This document shows, one piece after another, positions 1 to 20,878 of a DNA stretch of 21,808 nt. The stretch is from the IMG/VR virus record IMGVR_UViG_3300045733_000028, positions 1 through 21,808 of that record; one strand, given 5' to 3'. Under the pieces are notes generated by a model that was given only the letters and a program-made list of their open reading frames with translations, did not search any database and had not been told where the DNA came from. Position 1 is the stretch's first letter; the number at the start of each line of letters is the position of its first letter. Source of the DNA: a virus. A program made the position numbers and the translations under genes.

Positions 1-3000
1 TAGTTCATCTACGCCACCTATTTCTTCTACCCACTTTACCCAACTATCAGGTACTGGAACCATACATTCTGCTTCGTTTATTCCGTCTTTACCCAGACTA
101 TAAAACTTAAGTTTTCTATCATAGAAGTATCCAGGTTCCTGAACATACATTTCTCCATGAGATTTTCTATGGATAACGTTATTCTTAACCATAGCAGTAA
201 GAATAGGTTCTACTCTATTAGCATCAGTAAATAGGTCAAAGACTTTCTCTTTACTATCTATAACTCCTTTAAGCCCCTCCATCATGTTATCAGGAAGGAT
301 TCTTGTATAGAACTGATCTTTTAATTCCTTATAGAATGTCTCTTCTGCTGTTTTATCTTTTAAACCATAACCATTCTTATCTTCAGTAACACCTAGTTTA
401 CCCAATACTTTATCCCAGTTACGTTTAGTTAATTCATTTATAGCAGCATCACGTTCTTTTATATTGTCAGCCAAGTCTTTAAACTCAGGAAGAAGTTTAC
501 CATTATTGTGAGTATCAGCGTATATATTTGAAGTTAACTGTATAGAAGCAGTTACTCTATTCTTATCTCTTTCCTGTATATCTAACTGAGTACCTATATC
601 ATTATATGAAAGTTCTGTAGTAATGTGTTTAGGCGTTATCATATCTCCTTTACGTATATCTATAGCGTTAGGATAATACTCACCTTTCATTACTTCCTGA
701 TCACTAAATATATCAACATCATTTTGTAACATTGAAAGATATAACTTTAATGCGTCTCTACCAAGTAATGATGGCATAGCAGGGCCTACAGAAGATTTCA
801 ATATTGATAATGTACCAGTATTACTTTCTATATTACTACCAGTCATACCTGCACCTAATGGTTTTTCAGGTGGTAACTGACCAAGTTTATCAAGAGTTAT
901 TCTTTCTCCTTCAAACATAGGAGCATATGATACTTTACCATGAGTGTGTCTTGAAAATACACCAGTAGTAAACATCTTCTTATTAGCATCTTTCCATATA
1001 GCGTTAAGTTCAGGATCAGCAATAACTTGTAATGCTAGTTTCTGCATTTCATATTGATAGATAGGTTCATGCATATCATCTTTCCATGTACCTTCTCTAG
1101 CCTTAAATCCTCTTACGTAATCAAGTGTTGCAAAAGAATGACCATCTATTATCTTAGCTTTACCCTTACCGTAGTCTGAACTAATGGCAACTAAGTCTGC
1201 TCTTTCACTTTCATTTCTTATAGGAGAACCTATTATAATTTTAACATTTTTATTGTGAGATTCACCGTTAGCCTTTGGATAATATGTATTAAGATGATCT
1301 ATTGTTAAATCATCATTGTTTGTTTGCATTCTAGTTGAACCAGAAGATGTAGTTCTCTTTTCAAGATCTTTAATACTTTTATAACCTCTTGGATCACCAA
1401 AGAATAATTTAAACTGTTCCTGTTGCCCAATGAAATAGTTATATGAATGTTGAAGTATAAGTCTATCGAGATTATCAGTTGTTATCCATCTATTACCATC
1501 TGTAGGTAATCCCATGTATTTAGAACCAGATACAGTCTCAGGATTTAATCCAGGTATTGCCCATTTACCATTACCTTTATCTATGATAAGTCTACCTTCT
1601 TTGAGAGATTCCTTTGTAAAATCATTAGTCTTAATTATATGATTATCAAAGGCACTTTCAATACCTTGACGATTATTGGATATAAAGTCTTCTACAAAAC
1701 CTTTCATAGTATCCAAATCATAGTCTTCAGGTATATCCTTGCTATTCAGGAACTCCTCTAGTGATTCAACACTTTTTTCATCATGAATAAACTTAAATAT
1801 ACCAAGTTCTTTACCATTCTCTGAGTAATGAGCAAGCTTAGAACCAAACCTTAAGTCTTTTGGATAAGCCCTTAATGATAGAGATGTCAATAGTTCATCT
1901 CTAAGATAACCCATCATTTTATTTGAGAATTGTAACTGGGATGCGTTCCATTCTGTATCCTGTATTTTCACAGCATATTCAGGAGATCTCTCTGCCATCC
2001 TCTTAGATGGTATAATATTTCTTAAGATTGCATCAAATGTAGACATCTTATAGTCTGCGAAGTTAGCATGTTTAAGTTCTCTACTAGCACCTGATTCATC
2101 TCTTATACCTTTAATAACATGAAGTTCTAATTGCCCTTCACCTGAAGCAATAAGTTTCCAATACTCTGAACTAGTTGTATATAGGTTACCTTCTTCACCA
2201 TCAAAAGGCATGATGTTTTTAAGTACATCTGGTACAGGAACAGGTTTACCTTTAGCTGCTTTAACTGCTAATGCATATTCATTTACCCTATTAAGTACTT
2301 CAGATAAATGAGAGTTTCTAGTTATAGACCATTCCATATTACCCTCTTGGTTAAAATAGGAAAGATCTGCGTTATTTAATATATATTTTGATGCTTTATC
2401 AAGTAGTTTATCAACACTACCCTGAATTTGTATCTTATTACGGTCATAGAGGTCATTTAAGCTCACATCTCTACCCTCACGGATAGCGACCTTCATTTCA
2501 GCCTTAAGTTTGTCTAAGTACACAGAAACCTCTTTTATAGCACCTACTGTAGCAGGATTACCATTAACATCTATTCCTAGATTATCAAGTATAGTTTTAG
2601 GATCAACCTTACTCTCCAAATCTTTAAGTAAAACTTTAGTGTTTACACTATAGTCATTCTTAGTTTTATCAAATGATATATAACGAGAGTCTTTACTTTT
2701 AGCTAAATCCATAGCGTTGTTTACCCATACATTCTTTGTAACAGACTTATCTGTTTCATTTGCCATATTAGCATATGTAACAACACCATTATTCTTAACT
2801 ATCTCAAGTGTAGGGATATTCTTGTTTGTAGCAAATACATTATAGAACTGATTACGTAACCTAAATTGAGTAAGACTAAGTTGTTTAGCATCCCCGCCTA
2901 AATACTTATATAGAAGTTTAAACGAATCATTTGATTTAGATAAATACTTAAGTTTAGTCATTACGCTATCCATAGAAGTAAGTTTGGTGAGATTATTAAA

Positions 3001-6000
3001 CAACGTATTCATTGTATTATTAAACTCAACATTACTATATGTTCCAAACTCTTCATTAGGAAAAGCTTTGAACTTATAATTACCGCCAGTTGCTTCTTTA
3101 GCAGTAACATTAGGTAATGATCCTATAAGGAATCTTATAGCAGAAGGAACTCTATCCTTCATAGGCCTTATAAAACTTTCTTCATGATACTGCCCAGGAG
3201 TGTCATCATGCTCTTCTGCATTCCTTTCTCTCATATCAACTTTATACTGGGTCATATAAAGTCTATGCTGATCTTCAAACTCCTTCCAGTTATCAAGTAC
3301 ATCTTTAAATGGAAAATCTTTATCTTTTACTCCATTAGCTTTTGCAGTCTCTCTATCAAGCATGTAGTCTTTCTTGATACGATCATATATCTCATTAGGA
3401 GTATCTTTAAATAGTAATTCTCCACCCTTACCAACATCTTCTCTAATCTGATCAAAGAATCTAAAGTTTAGATCTTTAACCAGTGCTAACTGTTTAACTG
3501 GATCTACTTTAGCTATTCTATCAAATGTTTCTGATGCTGTTCTAACTGGATTAGTGAATGTACCATTTTTAATAGCGTTAAAAGCTTCTTCAATTTGATC
3601 TTTAGAAGCAGTATCAAACTTAGCACTCATGCCAAGATGAGTAAACACTTTGTTAACAAAACCTTTTAATGCTTGTAATATCTTTTCAAATACAGTTTTC
3701 TGTACTTCTTGCCCTTTATTAAATTTATAATGACCATCCTGCATCATAAAATCTCTAAACTCTTCAGCTAGATGTTCTTCTGCCTGCCTATCTGTCATAT
3801 CATTATTACCAAGTCTCTTGCGAGTTTCATTATATAATGATTCCTGTATACCTTTATCCACAAACACATTACTCCATGTATGAAATGCCTCATGAAATAC
3901 AGTACCTTCCTCAGCTAAATCACTAAGTAGTACCTTACTACCTTTAGATAACTGCCCCCATAACTTACCATCAATAAGTTCAGGATGACTTTCTATAGGA
4001 AACTCAGGAAACTTTTCTTTAAACCATACCTTAGCAGCATCTATATTTTCTCTTTTATAACTAGTCTCATTACGAGCTAATCTATCAAAACTAACATTAA
4101 TCTCTTTACCTCCCTCTGCCTTTTCAGCAATCTGCTGATCAAACTCCTCTTTAGTGAAAGATTCTTTTACATCATCAGATGCATCTTCATACTTAGGGGT
4201 TACAATAGGTTTTTCATTAGCAACTACAGGAATAACCTCATCTGCTTTAACTTCTTTCTTGTTAAGGTCTACTTCAGGAGCAATAGTCTTATCCACAGAT
4301 ACAGACATCTTAGTAGTAACGTTACCACCATCTTTATTCTTAGAGGATATATCTATATCGTTAAAGTTTTCTAAATCTACTTCTCCTCTTGTTAATTTAC
4401 TAGCTATAGCTTTAGCTACATTTTGTGTAGTAACACCACTTTTAGTATCTTTAGCTTTTACATCAGGATGTTCAAAGTCTACTTTACCTGTCTTAGGATC
4501 ATAATTAAAGTAAAAATCTACTTTACTACCATCTTTTTTAGTCTGTGTGGCTTTTAATAGTAGCGTACCCCCCTGTTTAGCCACTTTAGTCTGGAGTGGT
4601 TCTTCGCCCCTTACATGGGTATTGAGTGACTGATTACTATACTGTGGAGATTTAGCTAGCGCCATATTTCTACCAGCCATAGATTTTGACTTAGAAAGCG
4701 GAACAAGTTCTACAGTACCTTTAGATTTAGCACTTTGTTCTCCACTAAATAAGAAACCTTTATACCCACCATCTGCCCTTCTCCAGTTAATAGCTTCTAG
4801 ATCTAATTTATTATTTACACGATATTCAGTAAAGTCAGCATTAGTTTGTAATGATTTATAATCAAAATTCCAATATTTTGTAGCAAGGAAATCTTTGAAT
4901 GCTTGTACTTTCTCAGGAGCAGAACCATCTAATAACTCTTTTGTTTCTATCTGACCACTACCAAATACAATAGTTTTATATTTATCTTCAATAACCTCAC
5001 CTTTAGTATTTGTGTCTTTAACAAGAACTAATTTGTAATCATGTGCATAATCTCTTGCCTGTATACTAGTTTCGCCATTGAAGAATATTGCTTTCTTTAA
5101 ATACTCCAGCACAGAACCATAATCTTTCTTATACTCTGCAACATATTTAAACAAATTTAACACATTGTTAACATCCTTTGTCTCATCAAGAGTCTTAGGT
5201 TTAACAGGTTCCAGTCTATTGTTATAGATAACATAAGCATAACCTTTATCTACCTTGTATTCAGTACCGCTAATAGTTAATGATTCTTCACCTTCACCTG
5301 GACGAAATACCCTAAACTGTAACGCATTTAAATTCTCATTTATAGCATCTTTTAAGTCTACTTCTTTACCTTTTTCCTTAACCCCAGGATTAACTGCATC
5401 TATGTCAAGTATAGCAGGTTCATCTAATACTCTGGTTCTAAACTGTAGGAACTTTTCTTGTTGAGTTTGAAAGTCTTTATCTACAACATCTTCAGCTTCA
5501 GCCAATAGACCCTTTCTAACTTCAGGATTATCTTCTAATCCTTCATTAGTTATCTTTTGATCTATATATTCCTGTTCTGCCTGTTTAAATGAGAATCTTG
5601 TACTCTGTTTATCCGTTCTTCTAACAAGACTTTCCTCACCTAATGATGAGAATGCAAGATGAGTTTTCTGTCCCGATGTAACTTTAGCAAGAGGACTACC
5701 GTTATCATCTGTTAACAGAAACATGTTAGGATTATCGTAATGTATAGCTACAGTCTTAATATCATTCTTAGCTGTCTCTATAGCCTTGGTTTTCTTTGAA
5801 ACAGGAAGTTTATCTATTTGTTCTATCGTTAACAGTTTTTCACCTGTCCAAAACCTTAAACCACGTCTTAATTTAGCGTTCTTTAATGCTTGATCATAAG
5901 TAACAGTCTTAAGTGCATACTTAGGAGTCTTTTCTCTTTTGGTCTCTTCTTCACCTTCAGTTTTACCAACACTTCTTTTATACGCATGATTGTTTACAAA

Positions 6001-9000
6001 TACAAACCATCTGGCTGCATCATCCCCACTCTCAGGATTAACAACTACTTCTTTTTGAGTTCCTGATGTAATAGTTAAGAATGAATTGAATCCTTTATAA
6101 GGATGTCTAGCTTGATCTTCAAATCCACCTACAGGCCTAACTCTAAGTTGTGCAAACGTTTCTTCAGCTCCACTTTCAAAGTCTGGAGCTTTCTTACCAT
6201 CTACCCTACTCTTCTCATATAGATCAGGTGTGCCAAAGAAGTTATTTAAAGACTTCTTATATCCTTTAAATATCTCATTAAACCTACTACTGGCTATACG
6301 CCTACCATATTCGAATTTAGATTGAGCCTCAGCATACTTAGCCTCAGCTTCTTTGCTATCTTTTAGTATCTCTTCGGCATCAGATAGTTTCTGCCGAGTA
6401 TTCTCCATCTGATCAGCAAGACTAACTTCTTCACTTGGGAAGACATAACCTTCTGTGTCAGCCTCTCTAAGATCTTTAACTTTATTAGCTAAAGTCTCAT
6501 GTATAATATTTAACTTATCTACTTCGGATATATCTTGTCTATATTTCAAATCAGATATATCTATACCTAATTTCTTAGCAAGTTGTGTATGATAACCTTT
6601 AAGGAGGCGTCTTGTGTTGGCTATAAGTGTTTCAGCTGCATCTATAGCATCCCTACTAGCTTTAAGCATAACCATAGCATTTTGTTCTTCACCTATACTA
6701 TAGTCTCTTAACTTCTTAAGTGTCTCAAGAGGTAGTTCTTCAGAAGCCCTAGCCCTTTCAATTTCTGCATTAAATGTAGTAATTTTATCTTTATTCTTGG
6801 ATATACGAGACTCTAACTCACTATTTTTATCTTTGAGACTTGATATTTCATCCCTTATTTGACTTTCGGTTTGATATAATCTAACTATCCTACCAGCCTC
6901 TTCTTTAGTACCAGTATAGATTTTCTTATTAGATTTAAGTTCAGTAAGCAGTGCATTACGATGTTCTTCAGTAAATTTGGATAATCTACCTGTGAGATAT
7001 TTAATTCTATCTTTATTTACCTTAGCATCCTTATGATACTTCTCTATACCGTTCTTATAATCATCAATTACTCCACGATAGTAATCTACTGCAGCCTTAG
7101 TTTGTTGAAACTTCCTCTGCTCGTCTGGAGTTTTATATTGTTCTATATCAGTAACTTTAAATTTACTTCTACCATCAGAGTATTCCTCCATACTGTTAAG
7201 ATACGTAGTCCTATCAGCACCACGCCTATCTGATGGAAGTTCGTTACCTTCCTTATCAAACTTTACTTCCCTTACGTTGAGACTACCTGCTTTATTAGGT
7301 TCGCCTACTTCAGCAAGTACTTTTTGTGTCTTACCATCTTTACCTATAAAGGTTATCCTTACAACGCCACGATGAGTAACTTGCCTAGATACACTTGGTA
7401 TCTTAGTTGGGGTAAGTTCTCCTTGATGCATTAGGTTGATAGTCTTATCTACATCACTGTAATCCTCAACTAGATTATTCTGCTTCCATAGTTCTTTTAG
7501 ACCAGGATCATTTATCTGATTAGAAGAAGCATCTATAATTGCTTTCTTTAATTCTGGAGCTTTAGTTATCTTGTCATTAAAAGCCTTCTGTAGATACTTT
7601 TCGTCATATTGTTTATTTAACTCTTCCCCAACCCTTTTATATAGATTAACTAACCTCTTAACATTGTTTATATCTCTAGAGATTTGTATCTGTTCAGACT
7701 TATCATATTTACTCTTATTAGCCTCAAAGTTATCATTTAAATCTTTAACCATATCCTGACTAACCTCAGTTACTTTAGAGGTTATCCCACCTTTAGGATT
7801 AGTTGCAAGAGTTTTTAATACCTCTTTTATTCTATCCATAGAATATTCAAGATCTACCTTAGATGATAGTTTAGCATTTCTAGTGGTTTCACTGAATGCA
7901 AGTAGATCATCTTTAGTTGAATCTTTAAATGGTTTTACTTTAAAACTAAGAGGATGTGTGTCTTGAACCTGATCATATATTTTCTGGAACTTATCTAGTT
8001 TATCCAGCAGTTTGCCTTTGAGTGATTCTACCTGGCCTGTCTCTATACCAAGTTGATCAAGATCTTGCTGTTTCTCTTTATCAGCAAGCATATTAATATG
8101 CCTTTTAAATAGTTCTTTACCTCCTTCTATCTGTACCCAATTTAACATATAGTCAAAATGAATAAGGTTAGAAAGGTAATCATACAACTCTTTGTCTCCA
8201 GTCTTAAACGCCTCTATCGCCTGTTCTCTTATAGCACCATTATGTATTAACTGAAAACATCCTTGTTCAAGTTTATCAAAATCATAATCATATGTACCAT
8301 CTTCTTTCATTACAGGTTTACCATCCTTTGTCTTTGCAAAGTCTTTACTTTCTTTAAGATAGTTTACATAGTTATTTCTTAATAGTTCATTATAAGCACT
8401 AGCCAGTTTCTCTTCGCCACCACCTTTCTGAAGTTCACCGAATCCTGCCATTCCAGCACCGAGTATAGCGTTTAGTATTACACCACTCCATACTTTAGAT
8501 GATTTACTATCATCCGTTAAATCAGATAGGAACTGATCAACAATAGTTCCCATACTAAACTCTTTATTTTTATCTGTTGCAACTTCACCGATAGCTCCTG
8601 CTCCTGCTCCAAATACTAGTCCCATAGTAGCAGCTCCTTTTAAAGGCCCTTTAGCCTTATCCCATACCTTTACTCCTAGTGAAGACTCAGGAACTTTCTC
8701 TGCTATCTCTGTAGCACCTTCAGGTATAGTTTTATCTAATGCCCTAGTTACAGCAGATCTACCTGCTGCTTTAGATACAGTTTCAGAACGATTAAACCCA
8801 TTAAATAACCACTTCTGTTCTAGAAATGCTGGCCCTATAAATAGTGCAGCATTAGCCTTAAAACTATTACTAGCAGCTTTACCTGCTCCGGCTACATCGT
8901 TAGGATATTGATCAAGATATGTATTAAAAGCATCCATTCCAGATGCAGCAGACATGTATGTAGTATTAACAATAGTCGAAGTCCAGTCATTAAGTAACCC

Positions 9001-9744
9001 TGCAGTTTTACCAGAGGTTAGTCCAACTTCTGCTTTTTTAGCAACGTCTGCTAATTCAAATGCTGGTTGTATTAGTTTTTCAGCTGGAGTAAATATATTC
9101 TTAATTGCTGCTCCTGCACCAGCTAAACCTTCTCCAACTTTCATCCATCTAGTTATAGCACCTGGTGCTAACATACCTACAAGAAAACCTACGCCATTAG
9201 CTCCTTCTGTTGACCAAAAAGACGATGAAGATAATTTATCAAACAGATCACCATTCTCTACACCTTTTGGTGTGTACACAGGTAAGCCATTATTCTGAAG
9301 ATTTTGATTGAATTTATCAAGAGAATTAATCCAAGTATTGTTAAATGAATTAGCGTATTCTTTAGGATCAAATCCATTACCCGCCCATTCGAGAGCTCCA
9401 CCTATATAACCTGGCATTTTTAATACCTCAGTAGCAGCAGTAGTTGCAGCTCTTGGTATAAAGTATAGCAATCTCTCCCCAACCGATTCCGATTGAGCCA
9501 TAACCTCTGGAAGATCTACTCCTTCAACAGGAGCATTAGTTCCAAGTCTACTTTTAATTTTGGAAAAAGGGATATTCCCAGGAAGAGAGGCTTCTCTACT
9601 AGGAGATGTTGAAAAATCTTGTTCTGATTTTCGTTGTAACCTAGTTTTTAAACTTTCAGGTTCTCCAGGATTTGTAATTTCCGGAGACGAAGCATCCTGG
9701 GGAAGAATAGGTTCTTGCCCTAGCACATTTTCACTATCTACCAT
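1..9744 (-). CDS. Giant virion protein, 5' part: ejection region, zincin and virion RNA polymerase-like region (partial)
   Basis: Reading the minus strand from the ATG at 9744-9742 gives 3248 codons without a stop to base 1, so the protein is longer than 3248 residues and its C-terminus is off the window. An in-frame TAA at 9757-9759 makes this the first ATG; no Shine-Dalgarno is visible. Layout by residue: 80-450, Gly/Ala-rich hydrophobic stretches (about 181-200, 369-388, 418-436); 450-900, mostly helical; 925-1160, Lys/Glu-rich coiled coil; 1180-1820, unclassified mixed segments; 1820-1890, charged linker; 1900-2030, metallopeptidase-like domain with HEAFH at 1951-1955 and Glu 1994/1995; 2600-3248, motifs LFFGDPRGYK (2780-2789), a Tyr-Arg...Gly-x-Trp...Tyr block (2872-2898) and VPVPDSWVKW (3229-3238). 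From memory of crAss-like giant proteins, this last region precedes the DxDxD motif of the virion RNA polymerase. The gene follows the cargo genes directly. The crAss-like assignment is strong; the polymerase assignment is good but lacks the active site. Confidence 0.85.
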   Translation of the reverse strand, partial: MVDSENVLGQEPILPQDASSPEITNPGEPESLKTRLQRKSEQDFSTSPSREASLPGNIPFSKIKSRLGTNAPVEGVDLPEVMAQSESVGERLLYFIPRAATTAATEVLKMPGYIGGALEWAGNGFDPKEYANSFNNTWINSLDKFNQNLQNNGLPVYTPKGVENGDLFDKLSSSSFWSTEGANGVGFLVGMLAPGAITRWMKVGEGLAGAGAAIKNIFTPAEKLIQPAFELADVAKKAEVGLTSGKTAGLLNDWTSTIVNTTYMSAASGMDAFNTYLDQYPNDVAGAGKAASNSFKANAALFIGPAFLEQKWLFNGFNRSETVSKAAGRSAVTRALDKTIPEGATEIAEKVPESSLGVKVWDKAKGPLKGAATMGLVFGAGAGAIGEVATDKNKEFSMGTIVDQFLSDLTDDSKSSKVWSGVILNAILGAGMAGFGELQKGGGEEKLASAYNELLRNNYVNYLKESKDFAKTKDGKPVMKEDGTYDYDFDKLEQGCFQLIHNGAIREQAIEAFKTGDKELYDYLSNLIHFDYMLNWVQIEGGKELFKRHINMLADKEKQQDLDQLGIETGQVESLKGKLLDKLDKFQKIYDQVQDTHPLSFKVKPFKDSTKDDLLAFSETTRNAKLSSKVDLEYSMDRIKEVLKTLATNPKGGITSKVTEVSQDMVKDLNDNFEANKSKYDKSEQIQISRDINNVKRLVNLYKRVGEELNKQYDEKYLQKAFNDKITKAPELKKAIIDASSNQINDPGLKELWKQNNLVEDYSDVDKTINLMHQGELTPTKIPSVSRQVTHRGVVRITFIGKDGKTQKVLAEVGEPNKAGSLNVREVKFDKEGNELPSDRRGADRTTYLNSMEEYSDGRSKFKVTDIEQYKTPDEQRKFQQTKAAVDYYRGVIDDYKNGIEKYHKDAKVNKDRIKYLTGRLSKFTEEHRNALLTELKSNKKIYTGTKEEAGRIVRLYQTESQIRDEISSLKDKNSELESRISKNKDKITTFNAEIERARASEELPLETLKKLRDYSIGEEQNAMVMLKASRDAIDAAETLIANTRRLLKGYHTQLAKKLGIDISDLKYRQDISEVDKLNIIHETLANKVKDLREADTEGYVFPSEEVSLADQMENTRQKLSDAEEILKDSKEAEAKYAEAQSKFEYGRRIASSRFNEIFKGYKKSLNNFFGTPDLYEKSRVDGKKAPDFESGAEETFAQLRVRPVGGFEDQARHPYKGFNSFLTITSGTQKEVVVNPESGDDAARWFVFVNNHAYKRSVGKTEGEEETKREKTPKYALKTVTYDQALKNAKLRRGLRFWTGEKLLTIEQIDKLPVSKKTKAIETAKNDIKTVAIHYDNPNMFLLTDDNGSPLAKVTSGQKTHLAFSSLGEESLVRRTDKQSTRFSFKQAEQEYIDQKITNEGLEDNPEVRKGLLAEAEDVVDKDFQTQQEKFLQFRTRVLDEPAILDIDAVNPGVKEKGKEVDLKDAINENLNALQFRVFRPGEGEESLTISGTEYKVDKGYAYVIYNNRLEPVKPKTLDETKDVNNVLNLFKYVAEYKKDYGSVLEYLKKAIFFNGETSIQARDYAHDYKLVLVKDTNTKGEVIEDKYKTIVFGSGQIETKELLDGSAPEKVQAFKDFLATKYWNFDYKSLQTNADFTEYRVNNKLDLEAINWRRADGGYKGFLFSGEQSAKSKGTVELVPLSKSKSMAGRNMALAKSPQYSNQSLNTHVRGEEPLQTKVAKQGGTLLLKATQTKKDGSKVDFYFNYDPKTGKVDFEHPDVKAKDTKSGVTTQNVAKAIASKLTRGEVDLENFNDIDISSKNKDGGNVTTKMSVSVDKTIAPEVDLNKKEVKADEVIPVVANEKPIVTPKYEDASDDVKESFTKEEFDQQIAEKAEGGKEINVSFDRLARNETSYKRENIDAAKVWFKEKFPEFPIESHPELIDGKLWGQLSKGSKVLLSDLAEEGTVFHEAFHTWSNVFVDKGIQESLYNETRKRLGNNDMTDRQAEEHLAEEFRDFMMQDGHYKFNKGQEVQKTVFEKILQALKGFVNKVFTHLGMSAKFDTASKDQIEEAFNAIKNGTFTNPVRTASETFDRIAKVDPVKQLALVKDLNFRFFDQIREDVGKGGELLFKDTPNEIYDRIKKDYMLDRETAKANGVKDKDFPFKDVLDNWKEFEDQHRLYMTQYKVDMRERNAEEHDDTPGQYHEESFIRPMKDRVPSAIRFLIGSLPNVTAKEATGGNYKFKAFPNEEFGTYSNVEFNNTMNTLFNNLTKLTSMDSVMTKLKYLSKSNDSFKLLYKYLGGDAKQLSLTQFRLRNQFYNVFATNKNIPTLEIVKNNGVVTYANMANETDKSVTKNVWVNNAMDLAKSKDSRYISFDKTKNDYSVNTKVLLKDLESKVDPKTILDNLGIDVNGNPATVGAIKEVSVYLDKLKAEMKVAIREGRDVSLNDLYDRNKIQIQGSVDKLLDKASKYILNNADLSYFNQEGNMEWSITRNSHLSEVLNRVNEYALAVKAAKGKPVPVPDVLKNIMPFDGEEGNLYTTSSEYWKLIASGEGQLELHVIKGIRDESGASRELKHANFADYKMSTFDAILRNIIPSKRMAERSPEYAVKIQDTEWNASQLQFSNKMMGYLRDELLTSLSLRAYPKDLRFGSKLAHYSENGKELGIFKFIHDEKSVESLEEFLNSKDIPEDYDLDTMKGFVEDFISNNRQGIESAFDNHIIKTNDFTKESLKEGRLIIDKGNGKWAIPGLNPETVSGSKYMGLPTDGNRWITTDNLDRLILQHSYNYFIGQQEQFKLFFGDPRGYKSIKDLEKRTTSSGSTRMQTNNDDLTIDHLNTYYPKANGESHNKNVKIIIGSPIRNESERADLVAISSDYGKGKAKIIDGHSFATLDYVRGFKAREGTWKDDMHEPIYQYEMQKLALQVIADPELNAIWKDANKKMFTTGVFSRHTHGKVSYAPMFEGERITLDKLGQLPPEKPLGAGMTGSNIESNTGTLSILKSSVGPAMPSLLGRDALKLYLSMLQNDVDIFSDQEVMKGEYYPNAIDIRKGDMITPKHITTELSYNDIGTQLDIQERDKNRVTASIQLTSNIYADTHNNGKLLPEFKDLADNIKERDAAINELTKRNWDKVLGKLGVTEDKNGYGLKDKTAEETFYKELKDQFYTRILPDNMMEGLKGVIDSKEKVFDLFTDANRVEPILTAMVKNNVIHRKSHGEMYVQEPGYFYDRKLKFYSLGKDGINEAECMVPVPDSWVKWVEEIGGVDEL

Positions 9745-9763
9745 ACTAATAAATGATTAATAA

Positions 9764-12058
9764 CTATTGCTTATTTTTTACATAATCAAGATACACTTCA
9801 TCTAGTGCTCCAAACAATCCTTGTTTAGTTGCATATTCAAAAGGTTCCGGGTATCCTGGGACATTTAATATATATTTTATTCTACCTGTTCCACTAGTTA
9901 AATCTGTAGTTCTATTTACTCTAACTCCATTAAATGGCGCAAGTGTTTGATATCTATTAGAAAGTATGTTCTTTAAGCGTTGGTCATTATCATTAATTGT
10001 ATAGCCTTGTGCTCTATTAGATAGAGTTATATCTTTGTATATTACGTCTTTAAATTCTGGTCTTCCTGTTACCTGAGAGGCTCTATCCATAAAGTCTGGG
10101 CCCATCTTAGCTAAATTCATCCTAAGTGTTACGAAGTCTTTATCTGGAGAGTACAATGTAATGGAAGGATCTCCTTCTCTAGTAAAGTTATACTCTACTG
10201 TTGATTCACCACCAGCCATTCCAGTTTTACTAGTGGTATTAAATTTAGATGCAAAAGTTTTTAATCTATCTGGAGACCATTCTCCAGGATTACCATTTTT
10301 ATCTTCTACATCAAAGTGTTGCATATAATTTCCAAACCAATCAGTTGCTCTTTTAGCTTCTTCTGGTTTAGACCCATATGGGGGAGCATATATGTCTGAT
10401 ACAAATACATCTCCATCCTTTATTTTTTTATCTACTTGATTTTTAACTACCTGAAAACTATTTGGATTTGCACCAGTTTCATGATAGTTACCAGTTCCTT
10501 GATAATAATTCTCAAATTCATCAATAGTTTTTGCTACCTGCTTAGCTGTTTTACCAAATAGATTGGTTAATTGTGGTTCTGATAATGTACTATATTTATC
10601 AGAATTATTAGCTTTATATTCTTTTAATAGATTTACCGTTAATTTACGAGTTAAATCTGCCTTTGTGTTAGTGGTAGATTTATAATTATCTATTGCTGCA
10701 ATTGTTGCATTTGAAGAACCTTCAACTAATCCAGAAATAATAGCAGGAATAGTCATATTAGTATTACCAAATGTTGTGAACAAGTTCTTAAGGACAGGGT
10801 TTAGAGTCTTACTAACAACACCTGGGGTAAGAACTGCGTTAAACTTTTTATTGAAATCGGTTTCTGGTACTGGTTGAATCTTTCTTTCTAGTGAAGAAGT
10901 CTTTAACATGTAGTCTCTTATAGTATTAAAAACAACATCAGAGTTGCCTGGTGCTGTTTCAATTCCAGATAAACCATTATCAATAATATTTCTTCCTATT
11001 TTTAATATTTTAGCATTTTGAGGTACTGCCTCTACTTGAGTAAACACATCCCTTAGTTTATCCTGAACATATAGACCTGTTTGATATTGATTAGCTATTT
11101 CAGCTTTTTTCTCTTCTGGTATATTGGGATCATCTAACTGAGTTCCAAGTTTGTTTAATGACTCCTGTGAGAATGTTTTTACTGCACTAGATAGGTCAGT
11201 AACATTTGCTTGTTTAAAGAAAGAGTTTTGATAACCTTTGTTTCCAATTTTATCTAGATTGGAACCAGTCTTATCAGCATTTTTTATACTTTCTCTATAA
11301 CTCCAGTCTTGCACGTATGAAGGTTTTCTTTCACCTACAAGTTGAGACATTGCCACTGAATAAGCTCTATCTCTAATAGATAGATCATTAGGATCAAATC
11401 CTGATGCTTGTATATGCTGACTTAACCAATCCTGTCCTTTTTTACTACCTAAGAATTTATTAGCCTCATCTGAATTTCTATAACCTTCTTGAGTAGCTAT
11501 TTCTAGATAGCCATTAGGATCGCCATTCTCATCTCTGAGTTTCGTGATACTAGGTTGGTTACTGCTTATACTTGTAGCGTGTTCTTTAGCTACAGAAGCA
11601 ACTCTCATATCTAGATCATTTAAATTACCAGGTTTCCAATTATTAAGATTGTTGGCATCTTTTAATGTAACAGAAGATGGATCAAAGTTTTCATGATAAT
11701 TAACACCATGTTCTGCAATAAGTTTACTTCTTAAGTCTACAGCTTTAGCTTTATCATTAATAAATGACCACAGTGGATGAGCTTTATATTTTGTTGTTAA
11801 TGCAGCAAGTCTTTGTGCATATTGAGAATTAGCTCTATCAAAATTAAATTGTTTATCCAGACTATCAACTTCTTTTGAAAAACCAGTCATTAGACTATTC
11901 TTATCTGCCTCATCTGTTGGCGAAGCAGGAATACCTGCCATAGCCTCTGACATACCCTGCTCTTTAGCAGTATTGACATCGTAAGCCTGTTGATATTGAT
12001 TTAATGTATTCTGCAATACATTAGTGTCCGTTGGGACATACTGTGGTATATAAGCCAT
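9764..12058 (-). CDS. crAss-like virion cargo/ejection protein, 764 aa
   Basis: The 764-residue protein begins MAYIPQYVPTDTNVLQNTLN, an opening I recognise from a conserved crAss-like late gene next to the giant ORF. Residues 1-140 look helical, with a Gln/Asp/Lys-rich N-terminus and an FxxDxANSQYAQRLAAL-like helix near 73-90. The rest is soluble, polar and apparently helical, with no catalytic motif, signal peptide or clear membrane segment. The start is supported by AAGGA at 12064-12068, five bases upstream of the ATG, and by tight packing: the upstream gene's TAA is two bases before the ATG. It ends in TAG, 19 bases before the giant gene. In relatives, proteins at this position are packed inside the particle, so a cargo or ejection role is inferred. 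The biochemical function is unknown. Confidence 0.75.
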   Translation of the reverse strand: MAYIPQYVPTDTNVLQNTLNQYQQAYDVNTAKEQGMSEAMAGIPASPTDEADKNSLMTGFSKEVDSLDKQFNFDRANSQYAQRLAALTTKYKAHPLWSFINDKAKAVDLRSKLIAEHGVNYHENFDPSSVTLKDANNLNNWKPGNLNDLDMRVASVAKEHATSISSNQPSITKLRDENGDPNGYLEIATQEGYRNSDEANKFLGSKKGQDWLSQHIQASGFDPNDLSIRDRAYSVAMSQLVGERKPSYVQDWSYRESIKNADKTGSNLDKIGNKGYQNSFFKQANVTDLSSAVKTFSQESLNKLGTQLDDPNIPEEKKAEIANQYQTGLYVQDKLRDVFTQVEAVPQNAKILKIGRNIIDNGLSGIETAPGNSDVVFNTIRDYMLKTSSLERKIQPVPETDFNKKFNAVLTPGVVSKTLNPVLKNLFTTFGNTNMTIPAIISGLVEGSSNATIAAIDNYKSTTNTKADLTRKLTVNLLKEYKANNSDKYSTLSEPQLTNLFGKTAKQVAKTIDEFENYYQGTGNYHETGANPNSFQVVKNQVDKKIKDGDVFVSDIYAPPYGSKPEEAKRATDWFGNYMQHFDVEDKNGNPGEWSPDRLKTFASKFNTTSKTGMAGGESTVEYNFTREGDPSITLYSPDKDFVTLRMNLAKMGPDFMDRASQVTGRPEFKDVIYKDITLSNRAQGYTINDNDQRLKNILSNRYQTLAPFNGVRVNRTTDLTSGTGRIKYILNVPGYPEPFEYATKQGLFGALDEVYLDYVKNKQ

Positions 12059-12060
12059 AA

Positions 12061-13266
12061 TTATCCTTGATTAGATTGTCCGTATCTTGGTAATACTTTT
12101 GTAGTTCCTCCAGTCATAGAACGTACAAACTTCTGCCATGAGTTCTCTTGACCTGGAACATATTGATAAAGACCATAATCTTTACCCATCGTATTCATCA
12201 TACTAGCTTGATTGTATTGTGCCCTATAATCAGCCATTGCTCTAGGTATTGTTTCTCCTAGACTATTATATAAACCTAGTCTCTGTTGACCATACATTTC
12301 TCTACTACGAGCATTCTGCGTTGCTTCCTGCATCTTAATATTAGCATTAGTTTGACTAGTCTGATTAGATACTCCAGCATTCTGCACATCTTCATTTAGA
12401 TAAGACTGAGACATATTCTCTCCGAGGTTACGATTAACCTCTGTAACTCCAGCTACTTGATTAGCATAAGCGTTACTAGGGTTAGATGCATTCCTTGAGT
12501 TAGTTAATGCAATATTTGTAGCATTTCCTGCACTTCGCTGTAGTGCTTCTCTTTGTCTAGATAAGTTAAGGTATGTAGGTACGACTGATGGAAATTGTAC
12601 CCTATTTCTTTTTAAGTTTTGTTTAGCTGCTATAAGTGATCCTATATCCCCTAACGCTGAAGCACCTGCTGCTATAGCACTTGGAACTATACTAGCAGAC
12701 ATAGGTTGATATGAACCATTATTAGATGAATTACCATAGTTATTCATAGGGGCATTGGCTTGTTGTAAACCAGCTTGGCCCACGAAATTAAATGCCGCAT
12801 TCAAAGAACCATTAACTTCATCGGCAGGATTAAGATAATCATCTGGATTACCTCCACCATATGCGTAGTTTCTCATATGCCAAGGATCTCTCTTCATGAA
12901 TCTAGGATACATGAATTTACCACCCATCTTATAAGTATGCTTACTTGTATCCTCCCAACTATCCCATTCACCACCATGCTCCATTTGCTGTTGCCCAGAT
13001 TGCTGACCTTGCTGCTGCATCATCTGTTGTTCCATCTGAGGTTGTTCATCCTGTCCTTGTTCCTGTTCTTCTGGCTGTCCAGGTTGCTCCTGTTGTTCTT
13101 GCTCATTACCCATACCATTAGCATTACGAAACTCTTCTTGCTGATCTTTTAGTTTTGCAAGTTCTGCTAACATATCTTTTCTTTCTATGCTGTCCCATTC
13201 AAAACGAGGAAAACGTTTTTTTATTTCCCTAACTTGGTCAGCATAACTTTTAATCTTTTTTTTCAT
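12061..13266 (-). CDS. crAss-like Gln-rich virion cargo protein, 401 aa
   Basis: Residues 1-47 form a highly charged helix (MKKKIKSYADQVREIKKRF...). Residues 54-96 are low complexity, with 20 Gln and 9 Glu in 43 positions. Next come an aromatic/Gly segment with KMGGKFMYPRF (113-123) and RNYAYGGG (132-139), an Ala/Gly-rich stretch at about 190-213 that may touch membrane, and an Asn/Gln/Ala-rich helical C-terminal half. No enzyme motif is seen. Its place between the 546-aa and 764-aa cargo genes, and the GG-type motifs it shares with the 546-aa protein, suggest an internal virion protein; this is inference from crAss-like gene order. The first 17 bases overlap the 3' end of the homing endonuclease gene, and the start has no visible Shine-Dalgarno. 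The N-terminus looks complete, so the insertion does not seem to have broken the gene. Confidence 0.72.
   Translation of the reverse strand: MKKKIKSYADQVREIKKRFPRFEWDSIERKDMLAELAKLKDQQEEFRNANGMGNEQEQQEQPGQPEEQEQGQDEQPQMEQQMMQQQGQQSGQQQMEHGGEWDSWEDTSKHTYKMGGKFMYPRFMKRDPWHMRNYAYGGGNPDDYLNPADEVNGSLNAAFNFVGQAGLQQANAPMNNYGNSSNNGSYQPMSASIVPSAIAAGASALGDIGSLIAAKQNLKRNRVQFPSVVPTYLNLSRQREALQRSAGNATNIALTNSRNASNPSNAYANQVAGVTEVNRNLGENMSQSYLNEDVQNAGVSNQTSQTNANIKMQEATQNARSREMYGQQRLGLYNSLGETIPRAMADYRAQYNQASMMNTMGKDYGLYQYVPGQENSWQKFVRSMTGGTTKVLPRYGQSNQG
12064..12068 (-). promoter_or_regulatory. Ribosome binding site of the 764-aa cargo gene
   Basis: AAGGA on the minus strand lies five bases before the ATG at 12058, inside the last codons of the upstream 401-aa gene. 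It supports this start and suggests translational coupling across the two-base intergenic gap. Confidence 0.5.
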
Positions 13267-14050
13267 CTTTTATTATTGTTAAAAAAGTATGGGAATCGAA
13301 TGGTAATTTTTTAGACCATGCCCGCAAACCTCTTTCTACTTTATATTGTTTTTTAGCACTTTCTAAATAATCAAGTATTAAATATTCTTTTTGTTTAAAT
13401 CCATTTTCTTTTAAATATTTAACCAAGGTGCCTTTATCTAAACCATATTCTTTTGCTAACACGGTTAATGATTCTTTACCAAGTAAATTTCGATAATATA
13501 TTTCAGTCAACGGTAAATCTTTTTTTCTTCTTAAAGTTTCAATCCCATTTCTATAAAAGGTAGTCTTTATTTTAGAAATACTAACATTAAAAATTTTTGC
13601 AATTTCTTCTGTGCTAACTCCTTCGTTATGTAATTTTATTGCCTTTATTATATCAATTTCTTTAAACAAAACATGAGTGGGCCCAGCAATAGATATATCT
13701 GTTTCTTTAGAAATATTAAAAGTATTTTTAAACCCATAATAATCTATCCAATATTTTTCTCTTTTTCTACAATCTTCTGGATTAATAACTATTTCTAAAA
13801 TAGAAAAACTTAAACTCTCTATCCCATATTTATTAACATGATTCTGAAGATGGGCACAATGATGATTATTTTTCCTTAAGTCTCCTAAATGTTCGCTCCA
13901 TCTTCCTATGAATCCAGTTTTACACGTAGTGCTGCCAATATATTTTTTATCATTAATCTTATTACCAACACTATATACCCCAATTAAAGACAATCTATCT
14001 ATATCATCAGAAGTTAAATTATATACTATTGATCTTTTTTTAATTTTCAT
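13250..14050 (-). CDS. Free-standing GIY-YIG homing endonuclease, 266 aa
   Basis: The N-terminal GIY-YIG nuclease domain (about residues 23-110) has GVY at 24-26, YIGS at 37-40, the conserved Arg 50 (GRW), a HLQNHVNKYGIESLSFSILE-type core at 67-86 and the metal-binding Glu 98 in REKYWIDYY. All key positions are present, so it is probably active. The C-terminal half holds two helix-turn-helix-like segments (about 132-170, EGVSTEEIAKIFNVS; about 182-218, LTVLAKEYGLDKGTLVKYL), suited to DNA recognition. The ATG overlaps the upstream gene's TGA (ATGA), and the 3' end overlaps the next gene by 17 bases. Sampled 60-base lines inside it are about 22-23% G+C, against 37-38% in sampled lines of its neighbours, which suggests foreign origin. 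Such genes cut homing-free alleles and spread by repair; the target is probably near the insertion junction. It is not a virion component. Confidence 0.92.
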   Translation of the reverse strand: MKIKKRSIVYNLTSDDIDRLSLIGVYSVGNKINDKKYIGSTTCKTGFIGRWSEHLGDLRKNNHHCAHLQNHVNKYGIESLSFSILEIVINPEDCRKREKYWIDYYGFKNTFNISKETDISIAGPTHVLFKEIDIIKAIKLHNEGVSTEEIAKIFNVSISKIKTTFYRNGIETLRRKKDLPLTEIYYRNLLGKESLTVLAKEYGLDKGTLVKYLKENGFKQKEYLILDYLESAKKQYKVERGLRAWSKKLPFDSHTFLTIIKDEKKD

Positions 14051-15687
14051 TTTTTCTTATCTTCTATAAACGGTAATCTATTTGAGAATATATATGACGA
14101 ACCATCCTCAAAATCTACTCTCTCTTCTCCCTCCTCAACCCTAGCACCTTTACCTACAGGTATACCACCGTATTTGTTTTCCTGATGAGAACCCCCTCCA
14201 GTGTAACTTGTAAGCATATTTTTATCTACTTTAAGACTATTCATAAATGGGCCACCATCTGCATAGTTACCGCCATAACGTTTTTGATATTCACCTTTTC
14301 CTTCAAACTTTCCAGGGCCTATTATATTTCCATGTCCATCTACAGGATAACTACTCCCTGACCAACCACCACTGTCTGGTGCTGGTACTATAGGAGGAGG
14401 CGTATTACCCATTGGATTAGTCATAGGATCGTTAGGAGCAAAATATTTATTACCATACTGATTGGCTGTATTACCATTGAGATAACCTTTCCAACCTCTA
14501 GTTTGCACTGAATCTATCATCTGTTGAGCACCAGCAGTTTTAGTCCATGCTGCTCTATTGAATAAATCAGCAGCATTTATATCTGTCATAGGATGATAAC
14601 CTGGTATGGATACTGGAACATCTCCTGGCCCCCCATTAGCATAATACATTGGAATGTATCTAGGATCTACTTTAACCATACCACCATTCTTATAACCCTT
14701 GAGATAACCACTTGGGCCATCATCATGCTTATAACTATATTTATCTAAGTTGTGTACATTTTCATTCTGATAGAGATCACCACCCCATTTCTTAGGATTG
14801 CCTCCCCCTGCGATAAAGCCGAAATACTTTTTCTGTTTATCAGTAAGTTGTTTACCATGAGCAGTACCATCTCTAAGCATTTCTTTTGCTTTGTTTTTAC
14901 TTAACTTTCCACCTTTAGTCATCTGTAACTGAGGCATTTTATTCAATTCATCAGATGCTCCTACCTGTTGTAATTTCTTATAATAATCAGGAGGATTACC
15001 CTTATTAAGTTTTATACTATCTTTTATATGATCTGCAGCAATACGTTGTGCTAATTTAGTATTACCTGTATGCTCATATTCAACTTTTTCACCAGCCTTC
15101 ATTTCTTCTGGGTAAAGTTTAATAAAATTCTTTGCTTCTTTTAATGTAGAGTTACCTTCTGGTAGATGACCACCACTAGCCATATTTTGATTATATGAGT
15201 TTAATCTACCCATAGCAGTATTGACATTTGCCTTATTTTGATTAAGTCCTGCTTCTTTATTTTCTAAGTCTTGCTGAGCAGCATCTTTACCAAATCCACC
15301 TGCACCGCTTGCCATCATCCCTGCTCCTATTGGTGCTCCAACACCTGTTGCTATTAAAGCAGCACCCCCAATAGTCTGTGCTATATTACCTACATTTCTA
15401 CCAAGCCATGAACCAAACCCATAGTCATTATAATAATTACCAGGATAGTATCCACCGAAAGCTTGATCTGTAGGGTAGTACATTTCTTCTGTATCATCCC
15501 ATGAAGGTATGTATCCACCTTCAGCCTTATGTTTCCAGTGTGAAGCATTCTGAGCAAATATTGCTCTCTTCCTGGTAGTTGGATTACTTGAATGAGTAAG
15601 TTCTGCTGTTGTTTTTCCAGTAGCCTTCTTTGTAGCGTTGAACTTTCCTTTGTTCTTTGGGTTTATATGAATACCAGATTTTGACAT
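14047..15687 (-). CDS. crAss-like mosaic virion (cargo) protein, 546 aa
   Basis: The protein is a string of short modules I recognise from Bacteroidota phage structural genes. Residues 5-53 (GIHINPKNKGKFNATKKATG, then RKRAIFAQNASHWKH) are a common N-terminal module. Residues 101-131 are Gly/Ala-rich and hydrophobic, possibly membrane-active. Residues 195-241 (VEYEHTGNTKLAQRIAADHI...YYKKL) resemble the DUF5661-type helical module. Residues 267-296 carry MLRDGTAHGKQLTDKQKKYF followed by GFIAGG. The middle is Gly/Pro/Tyr-rich. The C-terminus has TGGGSHQENKYGGIP (496-510), VEEGEERVDF and YIFSNRL (532-538), a recurrent ending. No catalytic motif is seen. It is the first gene after the only promoter-like gap, and its TGA overlaps the start of the homing endonuclease. 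The C-terminal module is intact, so the insertion did not truncate it. A role as packaged cargo or in assembly is inferred. Confidence 0.78.
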   Translation of the reverse strand: MSKSGIHINPKNKGKFNATKKATGKTTAELTHSSNPTTRKRAIFAQNASHWKHKAEGGYIPSWDDTEEMYYPTDQAFGGYYPGNYYNDYGFGSWLGRNVGNIAQTIGGAALIATGVGAPIGAGMMASGAGGFGKDAAQQDLENKEAGLNQNKANVNTAMGRLNSYNQNMASGGHLPEGNSTLKEAKNFIKLYPEEMKAGEKVEYEHTGNTKLAQRIAADHIKDSIKLNKGNPPDYYKKLQQVGASDELNKMPQLQMTKGGKLSKNKAKEMLRDGTAHGKQLTDKQKKYFGFIAGGGNPKKWGGDLYQNENVHNLDKYSYKHDDGPSGYLKGYKNGGMVKVDPRYIPMYYANGGPGDVPVSIPGYHPMTDINAADLFNRAAWTKTAGAQQMIDSVQTRGWKGYLNGNTANQYGNKYFAPNDPMTNPMGNTPPPIVPAPDSGGWSGSSYPVDGHGNIIGPGKFEGKGEYQKRYGGNYADGGPFMNSLKVDKNMLTSYTGGGSHQENKYGGIPVGKGARVEEGEERVDFEDGSSYIFSNRLPFIEDKKK

Positions 15688-15704
15688 GGTTATATAATAG
15701 GTTA

Positions 15705-15746: not shown

Positions 15747-15762
15747 ACTTTTTTTGCTCTTT

Positions 15763-15788: not shown

Positions 15789-15790
15789 GA

Positions 15791-18700
15791 TTAATTCTTA
15801 ACAGGTCTAAAAAATGTTGTAATGTCATGTAAGACAACTCTCTTATTAGAAGCATCATTATCTTTAGATAACTTTATTTTACAATATGTATCAGTTAGTC
15901 TATATACATCAGAAGATAGATCATCTGGTATTAACCAAACTCTCCATTGTCTTGCTATAGTTTTCTCAGTATCTGTAACCGTTGGTTCTCCTCCAAAGTT
16001 TAAAGCCTTAGTTATAGATTGATAATTTGTGTTTGCCGTAAGAGAATCAAACTGTTCAGTCTCATAAAAGATATTTAAACCATCTTTAACATCTACTCTT
16101 AAATCAACAACATCAAATCTACAAACAAGATTACTACTGGGGTTTATAATTATAGTAATATCTGAAGCAGTATATGTTTCATAAAATTCACCAACGTCTC
16201 CTTCGTTGTGATGATATCCAAATTCTGAAGTCATTGAATAAAGTTGATCATTTAAACTAAACATTAAATCAGGAATAAAAGAATACTTTCCAATAAATAC
16301 TCCCATGTATTCATTTAATACTGAAGTACTCTCTTGTGAACCATCGCTAATATAAAATAATACTTCTTTATAGATAGGATCAAACCCTGATTTAACTGTA
16401 GTTATTGCACCAAAAGATTTAAGATAACTTCTATATCCTTTTATCTCACTTATAGGAACTGCACCTTCTCCAGTAAATCCATATATAATTTTGTTTCGTC
16501 TATCAAGATAATAAAAAGATTTATCTGATAATACCATATCGAAGTAATTCTGGAATCCAGATGTAGTTGTTAGATAATCATATCTCTCAAGTACACCACC
16601 TGTACCAAGTACTAATTCCCTTTGACTATTATCCTGTATCATAGATCTTTCCTGAACAGATACTTGTGCTATACCTTTATCTTGACCAGCAAATAAACTA
16701 TTGTTTATAGTAAAGATATTTCTAATTGGGCCATACTTAGGGTCAAGCCATATAGTATTGTTTGTAAATACATTAGTCCAATTATCAAAGTATTCATTAT
16801 TTATTTTAGCACCTGTAGATATAATCTCAGTATCTATGCCCTCTATATTATTAGAATCAAATATTTTATTCTGTATAAGTTCAGCATTACCAACTTGTGA
16901 GAAGATAGCATTTTGTCTATACAGATCTCCTATCTCTACCGGATATCTTGTTGGAAATGAAGTTACTCCATCAATGACCTTTTCATTTAACCCATAGAAA
17001 CAACCAGCATTAAAATAAGGTATTATGTATTTCTGTATAGGATCAAGTCTATGAAATAGATCTATAGTAGTTTCAGTTGCAACATTTATAACCGTTTGAA
17101 ATCTGTATATTGCTCCATCAAAATACATTCCTTTTAAACAAGTATAAAACTGAATAAATGTATCCCCATAATAACAGGTTACATTAGTTGTTCCTTTTGG
17201 AATATATGATGAATAGGGTACTACCTGATTATAACTTCTGGCTTCATATGTTATACCACCATATCTAGAAACATGAACGTCTCTCATGTGAGCAGCAAGA
17301 ACATATCCTGTAGTTGCAGCATTTAATGTTAGATCAGCATCTAATTGCATTAAAAGGGTTGTACCTGTCTTTGAATAGTACACATGCCCCCCAGCAGTAT
17401 GATTTAATTCATGTAGATAATTTCTACTAAATATCTGTGAGTAGGTATGGTTTATAGGATCAGAATCACTATAGGTTATTAAATCATCTATGCTATAAAC
17501 TAAAGTGTCTGTAGCATTAGGAACTTTTATTTCCTTAGTCTTCATCCAATATAATTTCTGATCTGCTTCAGGAGTATCTTTAACATCGTCGTACCCATAT
17601 CTACCTTCTACACGGATCACATCTCCAGATATACGTTTAACATCTTTATTGAATGTTATTTCAGGAGCTATGAATTCTATAACCCTAGGTTCAGTTGTTG
17701 CTAAACCTAAGTCTTCTGCTCTTGTAAATACATATGGGGTTGTGTCACTTGTAGCAGTTCTAAGGTTTGTTGCGTCATCATATGCTGCAGATATAAGACC
17801 TCTCATTATGATACTCTTATCTGCATTCTTTCTTTCACATCTAAATATTTGCCATCCTAATAAAGCAGGATCAGATGGAACATTATATATTGTTATTTTT
17901 GGATATAAATAATTAGCATATATTTGTGTACTTAAAGTCATAAAAGCACTCTCTGGCACAGACGGCATCCTAAGATCTGATATCCACTGGGGATTACTAA
18001 ATTGCATCTTAGTGTTATAGAAAACTATATAGTTTCTATATACCTCATTACGCATAGATGATCTCTTAAATGTTTCTGCTGCGGTAGAACTAAATGGAGA
18101 ATTAACATGAGTTCGTCTTATTTCCGTATTAGTGTCTATCATTAACGAATCAGTAACAAACTCTATTTCTATGTTTTTTCCACTTGCTCCAAGAGTTGAT
18201 CCATTATATTGATATTTGTATTCATATGTTGGATCATCATCATTATTAATATCGTTGAATGTATTTATAGCATCGTGATCATAAGCAGTTTGAAACGCAG
18301 TCCATCCTGCAGCATCCCACTGTGCTATAGTATTACCAGCAGGTTGTGTTATCGTTATTGGTGCTTCAGTATTATCCGTGAGTATAGAAGATACTGTAGA
18401 TGTTGTATAATTATATGTAAATTGAAAACTATATAATGTAATATCGTCAAAACTTATAAAGTTTGTAAAAAAAGTACCAGGGCTTTTTGTTAGGTTGAAA
18501 CTTAAATTCCCACCAGCAAAAGAAATAGCACCTATAGTAGTGTCTAATGTAGTACCAGAAAATGCAGGATGGGCAGAAACGTTATCAGTATAATGACCAC
18601 CTACTATAGAAAAACCACCAGCTATAGTAGAAGCAACAGCAGTGACTGCAGTTACAGTTCTTCCAGCAGGTATATAATTTGTCTGAAAACTTGTTATGTT

Positions 18701-19948: not shown

Positions 19949-20878
19949 CTAGAACTTTCTTTGCTCTTGATTAGTACTTGTTTTGAACGAGTTGGAGTGT
20001 TGATTGATCTTAGGTATTGACCTCAGTAACATCCTCTTAATTCCTTCCATCATGTCTAATGACGGTTGTCTTGCAGCAGATCTGGCTGAACCTATATACC
20101 AACTGGCTTCTCCACTAGATGTTTCCCATACTTTCTGATCAGTCAATGCACGAGTACTCCTCCAACGTTTATAATCCATTCTTGATATCAGATACCACTC
20201 TACAGCCTTTATAAACTTAATGTTATCTGGAACCATTGGCATTCCAAGTTCGTCTATTGGATAAGCTTTATATGCCATTTCTACAAAACCATTCTTAAAG
20301 TTAGTATACATATAATCTCCACTTAGTTTATACTTAGGGGAGAAGTCTGTATTCCTAAAAGATGTTGATACCCTACCTTGTGCTGTTTTAATATTTTGTA
20401 CTAAGTCCGTAAGATCTTCCTGAGCATCTGTAAGTTCTGCTAATGTTCCAGCATCAATATCTTCCTGTGCTTCATCCAGTTTCATAGTTAATGATGTAGT
20501 AGTTAATGTACCAGCGAAGTCGCTTACTGAAGTATTGAATTCTTCTTGAACACTTGGAGATTGATAAAACAAGTCCTGTGTTTCAATCATTGCTTTAAAT
20601 CCTATTATATTAGATTGATTATCAAGATGCACCACACGACAAGGCCCAGGAACGGCTAAATCATTTGGTAACTCTCCTCTAAAGTTTTCAACAATAATAG
20701 GTATAGGATTTTCTCCTTGACCATTACATGTTTTATCGAAGTAAGATTGAGGAACACCGATGAGCCTTAAAACATCAATTACATCCTCAGCCGCATCAGA
20801 CCAAGGTATAACGTCTGTCTCGATAGTCCTGTATACCCTTTCAATTATCGCTGATAACGAAGTAAATCGACTATTCAT
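19949..20878 (-). CDS. Head-completion / tail stabilisation ring protein, P22 gp4-like, 309 aa
   Basis: The protein joins portal and tail in short-tailed phages and carries the family's pattern in crAss-like genomes: an N-terminal helical region with DAAEDVIDVLRLIGVP (29-44), a beta region with YKLSGDYMYTNFKNGFVEMA (about 183-202) then YKAYPIDELGMPMVPDNIKF, and a C-terminal helical part with RMDYKRW and a GSARSAARQPSLDMMEGIKR helix. Residues about 130-168 (Asp/Glu/Ala/Leu-rich, around DEAQEDIDAGTLAELTDAQE) look like a flexible helix. The ATG directly follows the TAA of the preceding gene (TAAATG) and has the best Shine-Dalgarno in the window, which fixes the start. It ends in TAG, and the muzzle gene follows in frame after one codon. 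Confidence 0.82.
   Translation of the reverse strand: MNSRFTSLSAIIERVYRTIETDVIPWSDAAEDVIDVLRLIGVPQSYFDKTCNGQGENPIPIIVENFRGELPNDLAVPGPCRVVHLDNQSNIIGFKAMIETQDLFYQSPSVQEEFNTSVSDFAGTLTTTSLTMKLDEAQEDIDAGTLAELTDAQEDLTDLVQNIKTAQGRVSTSFRNTDFSPKYKLSGDYMYTNFKNGFVEMAYKAYPIDELGMPMVPDNIKFIKAVEWYLISRMDYKRWRSTRALTDQKVWETSSGEASWYIGSARSAARQPSLDMMEGIKRMLLRSIPKINQHSNSFKTSTNQEQRKF

Follow-up and report, generated by a model that had tools for sequence, protein, structure and literature searches.

The giant open reading frame (ORF) of the window, i.e. the whole 21,808-base stretch of viral DNA that was analyzed, very probably (at roughly 85%) encodes a packaged crassvirus protein that serves transcription and ejection. 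In this protein, a homologue of crAss001 gp47 and phi14:2 gp67 is joined to the virion RNA polymerase that corresponds to gp50 and gp66 of the same two phages. Its modules lie in a single frame, are homologous to those of studied crassviruses, follow the same order, and are fused in the same way in relatives. By analogy with the studied relatives, the giant protein would be packaged, ejected, and active in early transcription. Features of the window are listed in Table 1.

Table 1. Annotated features of the window with their positions and the evidence or remarks for each
Feature	Position	Strand	Evidence or remark
Giant ORF	1..9744	-	ATG start, 3248 codons, 3′ end cut by contig edge
N-terminal module (residues 1-760)	7465..9744	-	Homologous to phi14:2 virion protein gp67
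Charged coiled-coil-like spacer (residues 881-1170)	6235..7104	-	Absent from relative G002
Middle region (residues 1171-1717)	4594..6234	-	blastp matches in nearest relatives only
Zincin-like metallopeptidase domain (residues ~1888-2065)	3550..4083	-	Profile, blastp, alignment, model
HExxH residues H1951, E1952, H1955	3880-3894	-	
Third ligand E1990	3775-3777	-	
Crassvirus two-barrel virion RNA polymerase, N-terminal ~1,100 residues (2151-3248)	1..3294	-	Profile and fold
Invariant lysine K2961	862-864	-	28 sequences
Invariant lysine K2983	796-798	-	28 sequences
764-aa protein	9764..12058	-	Between cargo 1 and giant ORF; conserved in L010, L011
401-aa Gln-rich cargo-region protein	12061..13266	-	Similar ORFs in L010, L011
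GIY-YIG homing endonuclease	13250..14050	-	Pfam PF01541 E=3e-9, phrog_314 E=6e-18
Cargo protein 1 candidate (gp45-like)	14047..15687	-	Weak Pfam crAss_CARG1 E=5e-4, below cut-off
Muzzle protein	15791..19945	-	Homologue of crAss001 gp44 / phi14:2 gp71
Ring protein 1	19949..20878	-	Pfam PF24228 CrAss_Ring_1 E=4.6e-39
IHF/HU-position protein, conserved in Crassvirales	20879..21499	-	phrog_12177 E=3e-25

No in-frame stop was found from position 9744 to position 1 of the minus strand, and the frame is still open at the edge. Over these positions, the remaining two minus-strand frames contain 234 and 624 stops; at this off-frame rate, the chance of 3248 codons free of stops is about 10^-200. An alternative genetic code is not needed, since the standard code keeps the frame open; genes of the window end in TAA, TAG, and TGA. 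The window is the complete IMG/VR record, with nothing further to the left of the edge, and an exact-match scan of viral contigs with the terminal 24-mer yielded no overlapping contig. Two relatives from independent assemblies, G002 (L019; 4082 aa including the stop) and G001 (L021 and L024; 5420 aa including the stop), are collinear with the giant chain, except that the coil is missing in G002 and a linker near residues 1717-1864/1904 is unmatched. The giant ORF is therefore neither a chimera nor the result of a missed stop, and the claim of an earlier sequence-only reading that one uninterrupted ORF of at least 3248 codons is present here was confirmed. By homology, the full-length protein should comprise about 4100-5400 aa, 3248 codons being a lower bound. 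The evidence from the window itself comes from one metagenomic contig, so that an assembly or frameshift artefact might in principle have joined separate genes; this explanation is extremely improbable and was rejected, as the same module order is found in single ORFs of G001, G002, two further loci (L025 and L032), and published Suoliviridae. Searches of the whole giant protein directly against Pfam, PHROGs, and PDB returned nothing significant, and when two slices of it were each scanned as a single protein against viral contigs, no relatives were returned. Module identities were obtained via relatives and profiles rather than by direct scans, with relatives recruited first by the muzzle protein and then by an alignment.

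Upstream of the giant ORF, and on the same strand, lie the genes for the IHF/HU-position protein, Ring protein 1, the muzzle protein, the cargo protein 1 candidate, the endonuclease, the 401-aa protein, and the 764-aa protein, in this order. The order of the structural and cargo genes agrees with that of crAss001 and phi14:2, which argues that the phage belongs with the Crassvirales, as judged on a 21.8-kb fragment that carries no TerL, portal, capsid, or primase genes. The IHF/HU-position protein is similar to the product of the IHF-subunit gene in phi14:2 and to the HU/IHF-like gp42 of crAss001, the muzzle protein shares 25-29% identity with Crassvirales muzzle proteins, and the cargo protein 1 candidate gave short matches to crAss001 gp45 and phi14:2 gp70. 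ORFs similar to the 401-aa protein were found in L010 (E=6e-39) and L011 (E=1e-34). The 764-aa protein, which has no match in the phage collection, occupies the position of crAss001 gp46 and phi14:2 gp68. We also noted that the homing endonuclease gene interrupts the cargo block, with cargo 1 on one side and the 401-aa gene on the other; a similar endonuclease ORF occurs in the same gene block of L012 and L013.

The N-terminal module of the giant protein matches phi14:2 gp67, which is annotated as a virion protein detected by mass spectrometry (blastp, residues 98-642 against gp67 86-603, E=3e-25, only 22% identity). A profile of this region of the module also detects L025, L032, and L029 and, in L049, an ORF of its own located upstream. 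Strong membrane segments were not found in the module at the threshold used; a hydrophobic segment near residue 180 falls below the membrane-helix threshold. The spacer that follows is 37% charged, contains 4.5% Gly+Pro, and displays a heptad periodicity above the 95% limit of shuffled sequences. Both the ejection-type N-terminal segments and the coiled coil proposed in the sequence-only reading were thus recovered, the former by homology to gp67 and the latter by its charged, Gly/Pro-poor, heptad-periodic composition. Identity of the middle region to G001 and G002 is 32-33%.

For the C-terminal part, which had been called virion RNA polymerase-like, the similarity to the crassvirus enzyme extends over its N-terminal half and was detected by both sequence profile and fold. 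A 28-sequence profile (A3) matched 6vr4_A, the structure of phi14:2 gp66, with E=5.8e-106 over profile positions 4-1028 (a three-sequence profile did not reach 6VR4), and Foldseek matched the predicted model to 6vr4_A with E=1.9e-23 and to nothing else significantly. A polymerase core profile built without the window matched the last ~110 residues with E=1e-15. The invariant lysines K2961 and K2983 would be the first-barrel lysines, judging from their position and 22-residue spacing rather than from mapping on 6VR4. G002 and G001 are 42% and 35% identical to the window, respectively, over the C-terminal 1,350-1,400 residues, and both carry the sequence NRxPT...DFDIDKL shortly past the last aligned residue of the window; from its position in this alignment, the catalytic DxDxD motif should lie about 59 codons beyond the edge. 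Polymerase activity of the window protein is predicted from these relatives, the DxDxD motif and the second barrel lying outside the window. Downstream of the polymerase, the G001 and G002 chains go on into a segment that looks like the beginning of gp49-type proteins. In single ORFs, the HExxH-to-DxDxD spacing has a median of 1377 residues (range 1281-1714; n=39 ORFs, duplicates included).

Two loci showed unusual polymerases. In L051, the polymerase is divided over adjacent ORFs (4460-14125 and 14129-18640) just before the DxDxD core, with about 220 residues particular to the second ORF preceding the core. The barrels would then be on separate proteins, recalling the cellular beta and beta′ subunits; the division may be a real fission or an effect of assembly. 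In L056, about 190 extra residues (ORF residues 2745-2935) lie within the polymerase core match, possibly representing an intein or an insert.

Between the middle region and the polymerase lies the zincin-like domain. A crassvirus zincin profile, in which the window row is itself included, matches residues 1888-2065 with E=1e-56; independently of this profile, plain blastp matched the region to crAss001 gp47 and Dulem virus 41. The HExxH motif and a downstream Glu are both present in the window and conserved: H1951, E1952, and E1990, which is located 39 residues past the first His, are invariant in 39 aligned sequences, whereas L041, L042, L070, and L036 have another residue in place of the second zinc-binding His. 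An AlphaFold model of the domain shows, in order, an N-terminal helix, three strands, the HExxH helix, and the Glu helix, an order of elements that has been described for zincins in the polyvalent proteins of phages (PMC5512222). Fold search of the model against PDB gave no significant match, possibly due to the low confidence of the model ends, and a viral fold library returned mainly giant crassvirus proteins. The best profile matches of the domain were zinc peptidases (E about 0.9). Since no solved zincin was returned by fold search, the designation 'metallopeptidase-like', already proposed from the sequence and upheld here by the HExxH and Glu residues, rests mainly on the conserved motif. 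No paper naming a crassvirus zincin was found in the part of the literature covered.

Two further observations concern HExxH motifs. In L041, L042, L068, L070, and L036, which represent two separate lineages, the second His is changed to Glu (HEIGE, HEVFE, HEAFE); all of these loci except L068 keep the fusion. Different HExxH motifs (HEVIH, HEIMH, HEFIH) were noted in a gp65/gp49-like region, the carriers being (i) L022 (G003), near residue 3669 of its giant ORF; (ii) phi14:2 gp65; and (iii) L021, at 2-2698. Apparently, a second zincin-like domain exists in cargo proteins of some crassviruses.

To determine how the two modules are distributed, both were searched for in 46 loci recruited by zincin-region alignment, for which a zincin-like motif was required, and in named phages. 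Zincin and polymerase are encoded in one ORF in 36 of the 46 rows of the polymerase tree (two identical), with the window and four Suoliviridae counted. Six members (crAss001, Dulem virus 41, L037, L038, L040, and L043) have split modules and form one fully supported clade, which is nested with fused relatives. L068 represents a frame break inside a group of near-identical fused phages, and L051 is broken inside the polymerase. The zincin was not detectable in phi14:2 and G003 by the search for both modules. At least three changes between the fused and split states are required on the tree. The window groups with G002, then with G001 (SH-aLRT 96 and 99), then with L025 and L032, all of which are fused. 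Among the loci covered, fusion of zincin and polymerase is the prevailing state. It is also suggested to be ancestral, on a quick, midpoint-rooted tree with several long branches and zincin-based recruitment. The sequence-only reading had stated that these functions are split in some crAss-like phages, which holds for crAss001, phi14:2, and Dulem virus 41; its implication that fusion is rare is not supported, as the four Suoliviridae and most recruited IMG/VR crassvirus loci are fused.

In L068, the break takes the form of overlapping ORFs (1765-9306 and 9269-14227) that correspond to a single ORF in the near-identical L041 and L042; the frameshift is either an error or programmed. In L049, L055, L067, L069, and L046, the ORF begins only 400-930 residues ahead of HExxH, the N-terminal module of L049 being placed on its separate upstream ORF. 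The joint at which a gene boundary falls therefore varies between lineages.

Fused proteins of this kind have precedents, and the giant protein of the window is a divergent representative of already known fused crassvirus proteins, i.e. real but ordinary. Large multidomain transcription proteins were described for crassviruses (PMC7886860), polymerase genes of up to ~6000 aa are cited in a review (PMC10136315), and fusions of virion RNA polymerases to large proteins were stated for crAss-like and N4-related phages (PMC10770324). Among the closest known proteins are the giant fused proteins (4272-4774 aa) of the Suoliviridae cr6_1, cr50_1, cr1_1, and cr114_1. In these, an N-terminal part, a zincin-like domain, and a DxDxD polymerase share one ORF, as predicted for the window, and this ORF likewise follows the muzzle gene and two genes of the cargo region. 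Identity to the window is low, however, and the N-terminal module of the window is nearer to phi14:2 gp67; a profile does not detect the module in these four. Moreover, two of the four genomes read TAG as a sense codon, whereas the window does not need an alternative code. In phi14:2, gp66 (PDB 6VR4) and gp67 are homologous to the polymerase half and the N-terminal module, respectively, and follow the same order, but they are two adjacent genes and no HExxH zincin was found in either. In crAss001, a zincin is located near the end of gp47 and the polymerase in gp50, but these two genes lie on opposite strands. Giant chains combining entry functions, a metallopeptidase, and a virion polymerase are also known from N4 (gp50, ~3,500 aa) and P23-45 (gp96, 5,002 aa, described as a tape-measure fusion with metallopeptidase and polymerase) (PMC5512222, PMC12633501, PMC10770324). 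Both differ from the window in domain order. In addition, N4 has a T7-type polymerase, and that of gp96 is located at the N-terminus of the tape-measure protein.

Two alternatives depart from our main reading only in the role assigned to the peptidase. According to the first, the chain is a polyprotein that the zincin cuts near the polymerase junction, in the head or after ejection, so that a polymerase of the gp50/gp66 type is freed from the ejection part. Processing of giant injected proteins by zincins is an already published idea, and Iyer et al. proposed that such domains autoprocess the N4-type polymerases in which they reside (PMC5512222). In the crAss001 clade, the split ORFs terminate 147-324 residues past HExxH, so that the zincin of the fused chain lies roughly where one gene gives way to the next in split relatives, a coincidence that autoprocessing predicts; furthermore, the window and most relatives retain the key zincin residues. 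However, the second zinc-binding His is replaced in fused chains (HEIGE or HEVFE in L041, L042, and L070; HEAFE in L036), G003 has a fused-type chain without a detectable zincin, split genomes keep an intact zincin though they need no cut, and the N4 polymerase is packaged unprocessed (PMC5512222). Because of these observations, a general requirement for cutting at the zincin-polymerase joint appears unlikely, and the earlier notion of a chain cut apart inside the host fails as a general rule. We consider the polyprotein explanation itself improbable for the window, although in some phages the zincin might shorten the chain, or it might act at other sites, its activity and the cleavage both being predictions. 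More doubtful still is the specific version in which the embedded zincin of fused crassviruses separates polymerase and ejection module at one set point during entry, a cut for which the split layout of crAss001 has substituted a gene boundary.

According to the second alternative, to which we would give slightly less than even odds, the zincin targets a host or envelope protein at entry, or is purely structural, and the chain works uncut as in N4. This would be consistent with retention of the domain in fused and split genomes alike, with its loss of the second His in two lineages that retained the fusion, and with the N4 polymerase functioning as one chain of ~3,500 residues (PMC12633501). 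On the other hand, the target is hypothetical, and for most lineages a purely structural role is made less likely by the conserved HExxH and Glu.

Under our main reading of a giant packaged transcription and ejection protein, the chain would be packaged in the head alongside other cargo proteins; in crAss001, the virion cargo comprises gp45, gp46, gp47, gp49, and gp50 (PMC10172136). It would then be threaded through the tail into the cell, probably with the N-terminal part first. The N-terminal module would stay with the entry channel, and the two-barrel polymerase would transcribe early genes inside the cell, in line with the description of the crassvirus polymerase as a virion enzyme for early genes (PMC7886860). 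The zincin just upstream of the polymerase would be a standing part of the cargo, for which cutting of the junction is probably not the general purpose.

In the best-studied crassviruses, crAss001 and phi14:2, ejection and polymerase functions are encoded by separate genes, and this split arrangement underlies the models of packing and ejection. Judging from the present set of loci, the common form would be one giant chain, mostly of about 3,000-5,700 residues, and its passage through a tail channel with constrictions under 50 Å would therefore be the usual case. Phages that are fused with a broken zincin and phages that are split with an intact one provide a ready comparison for the role of the peptidase.
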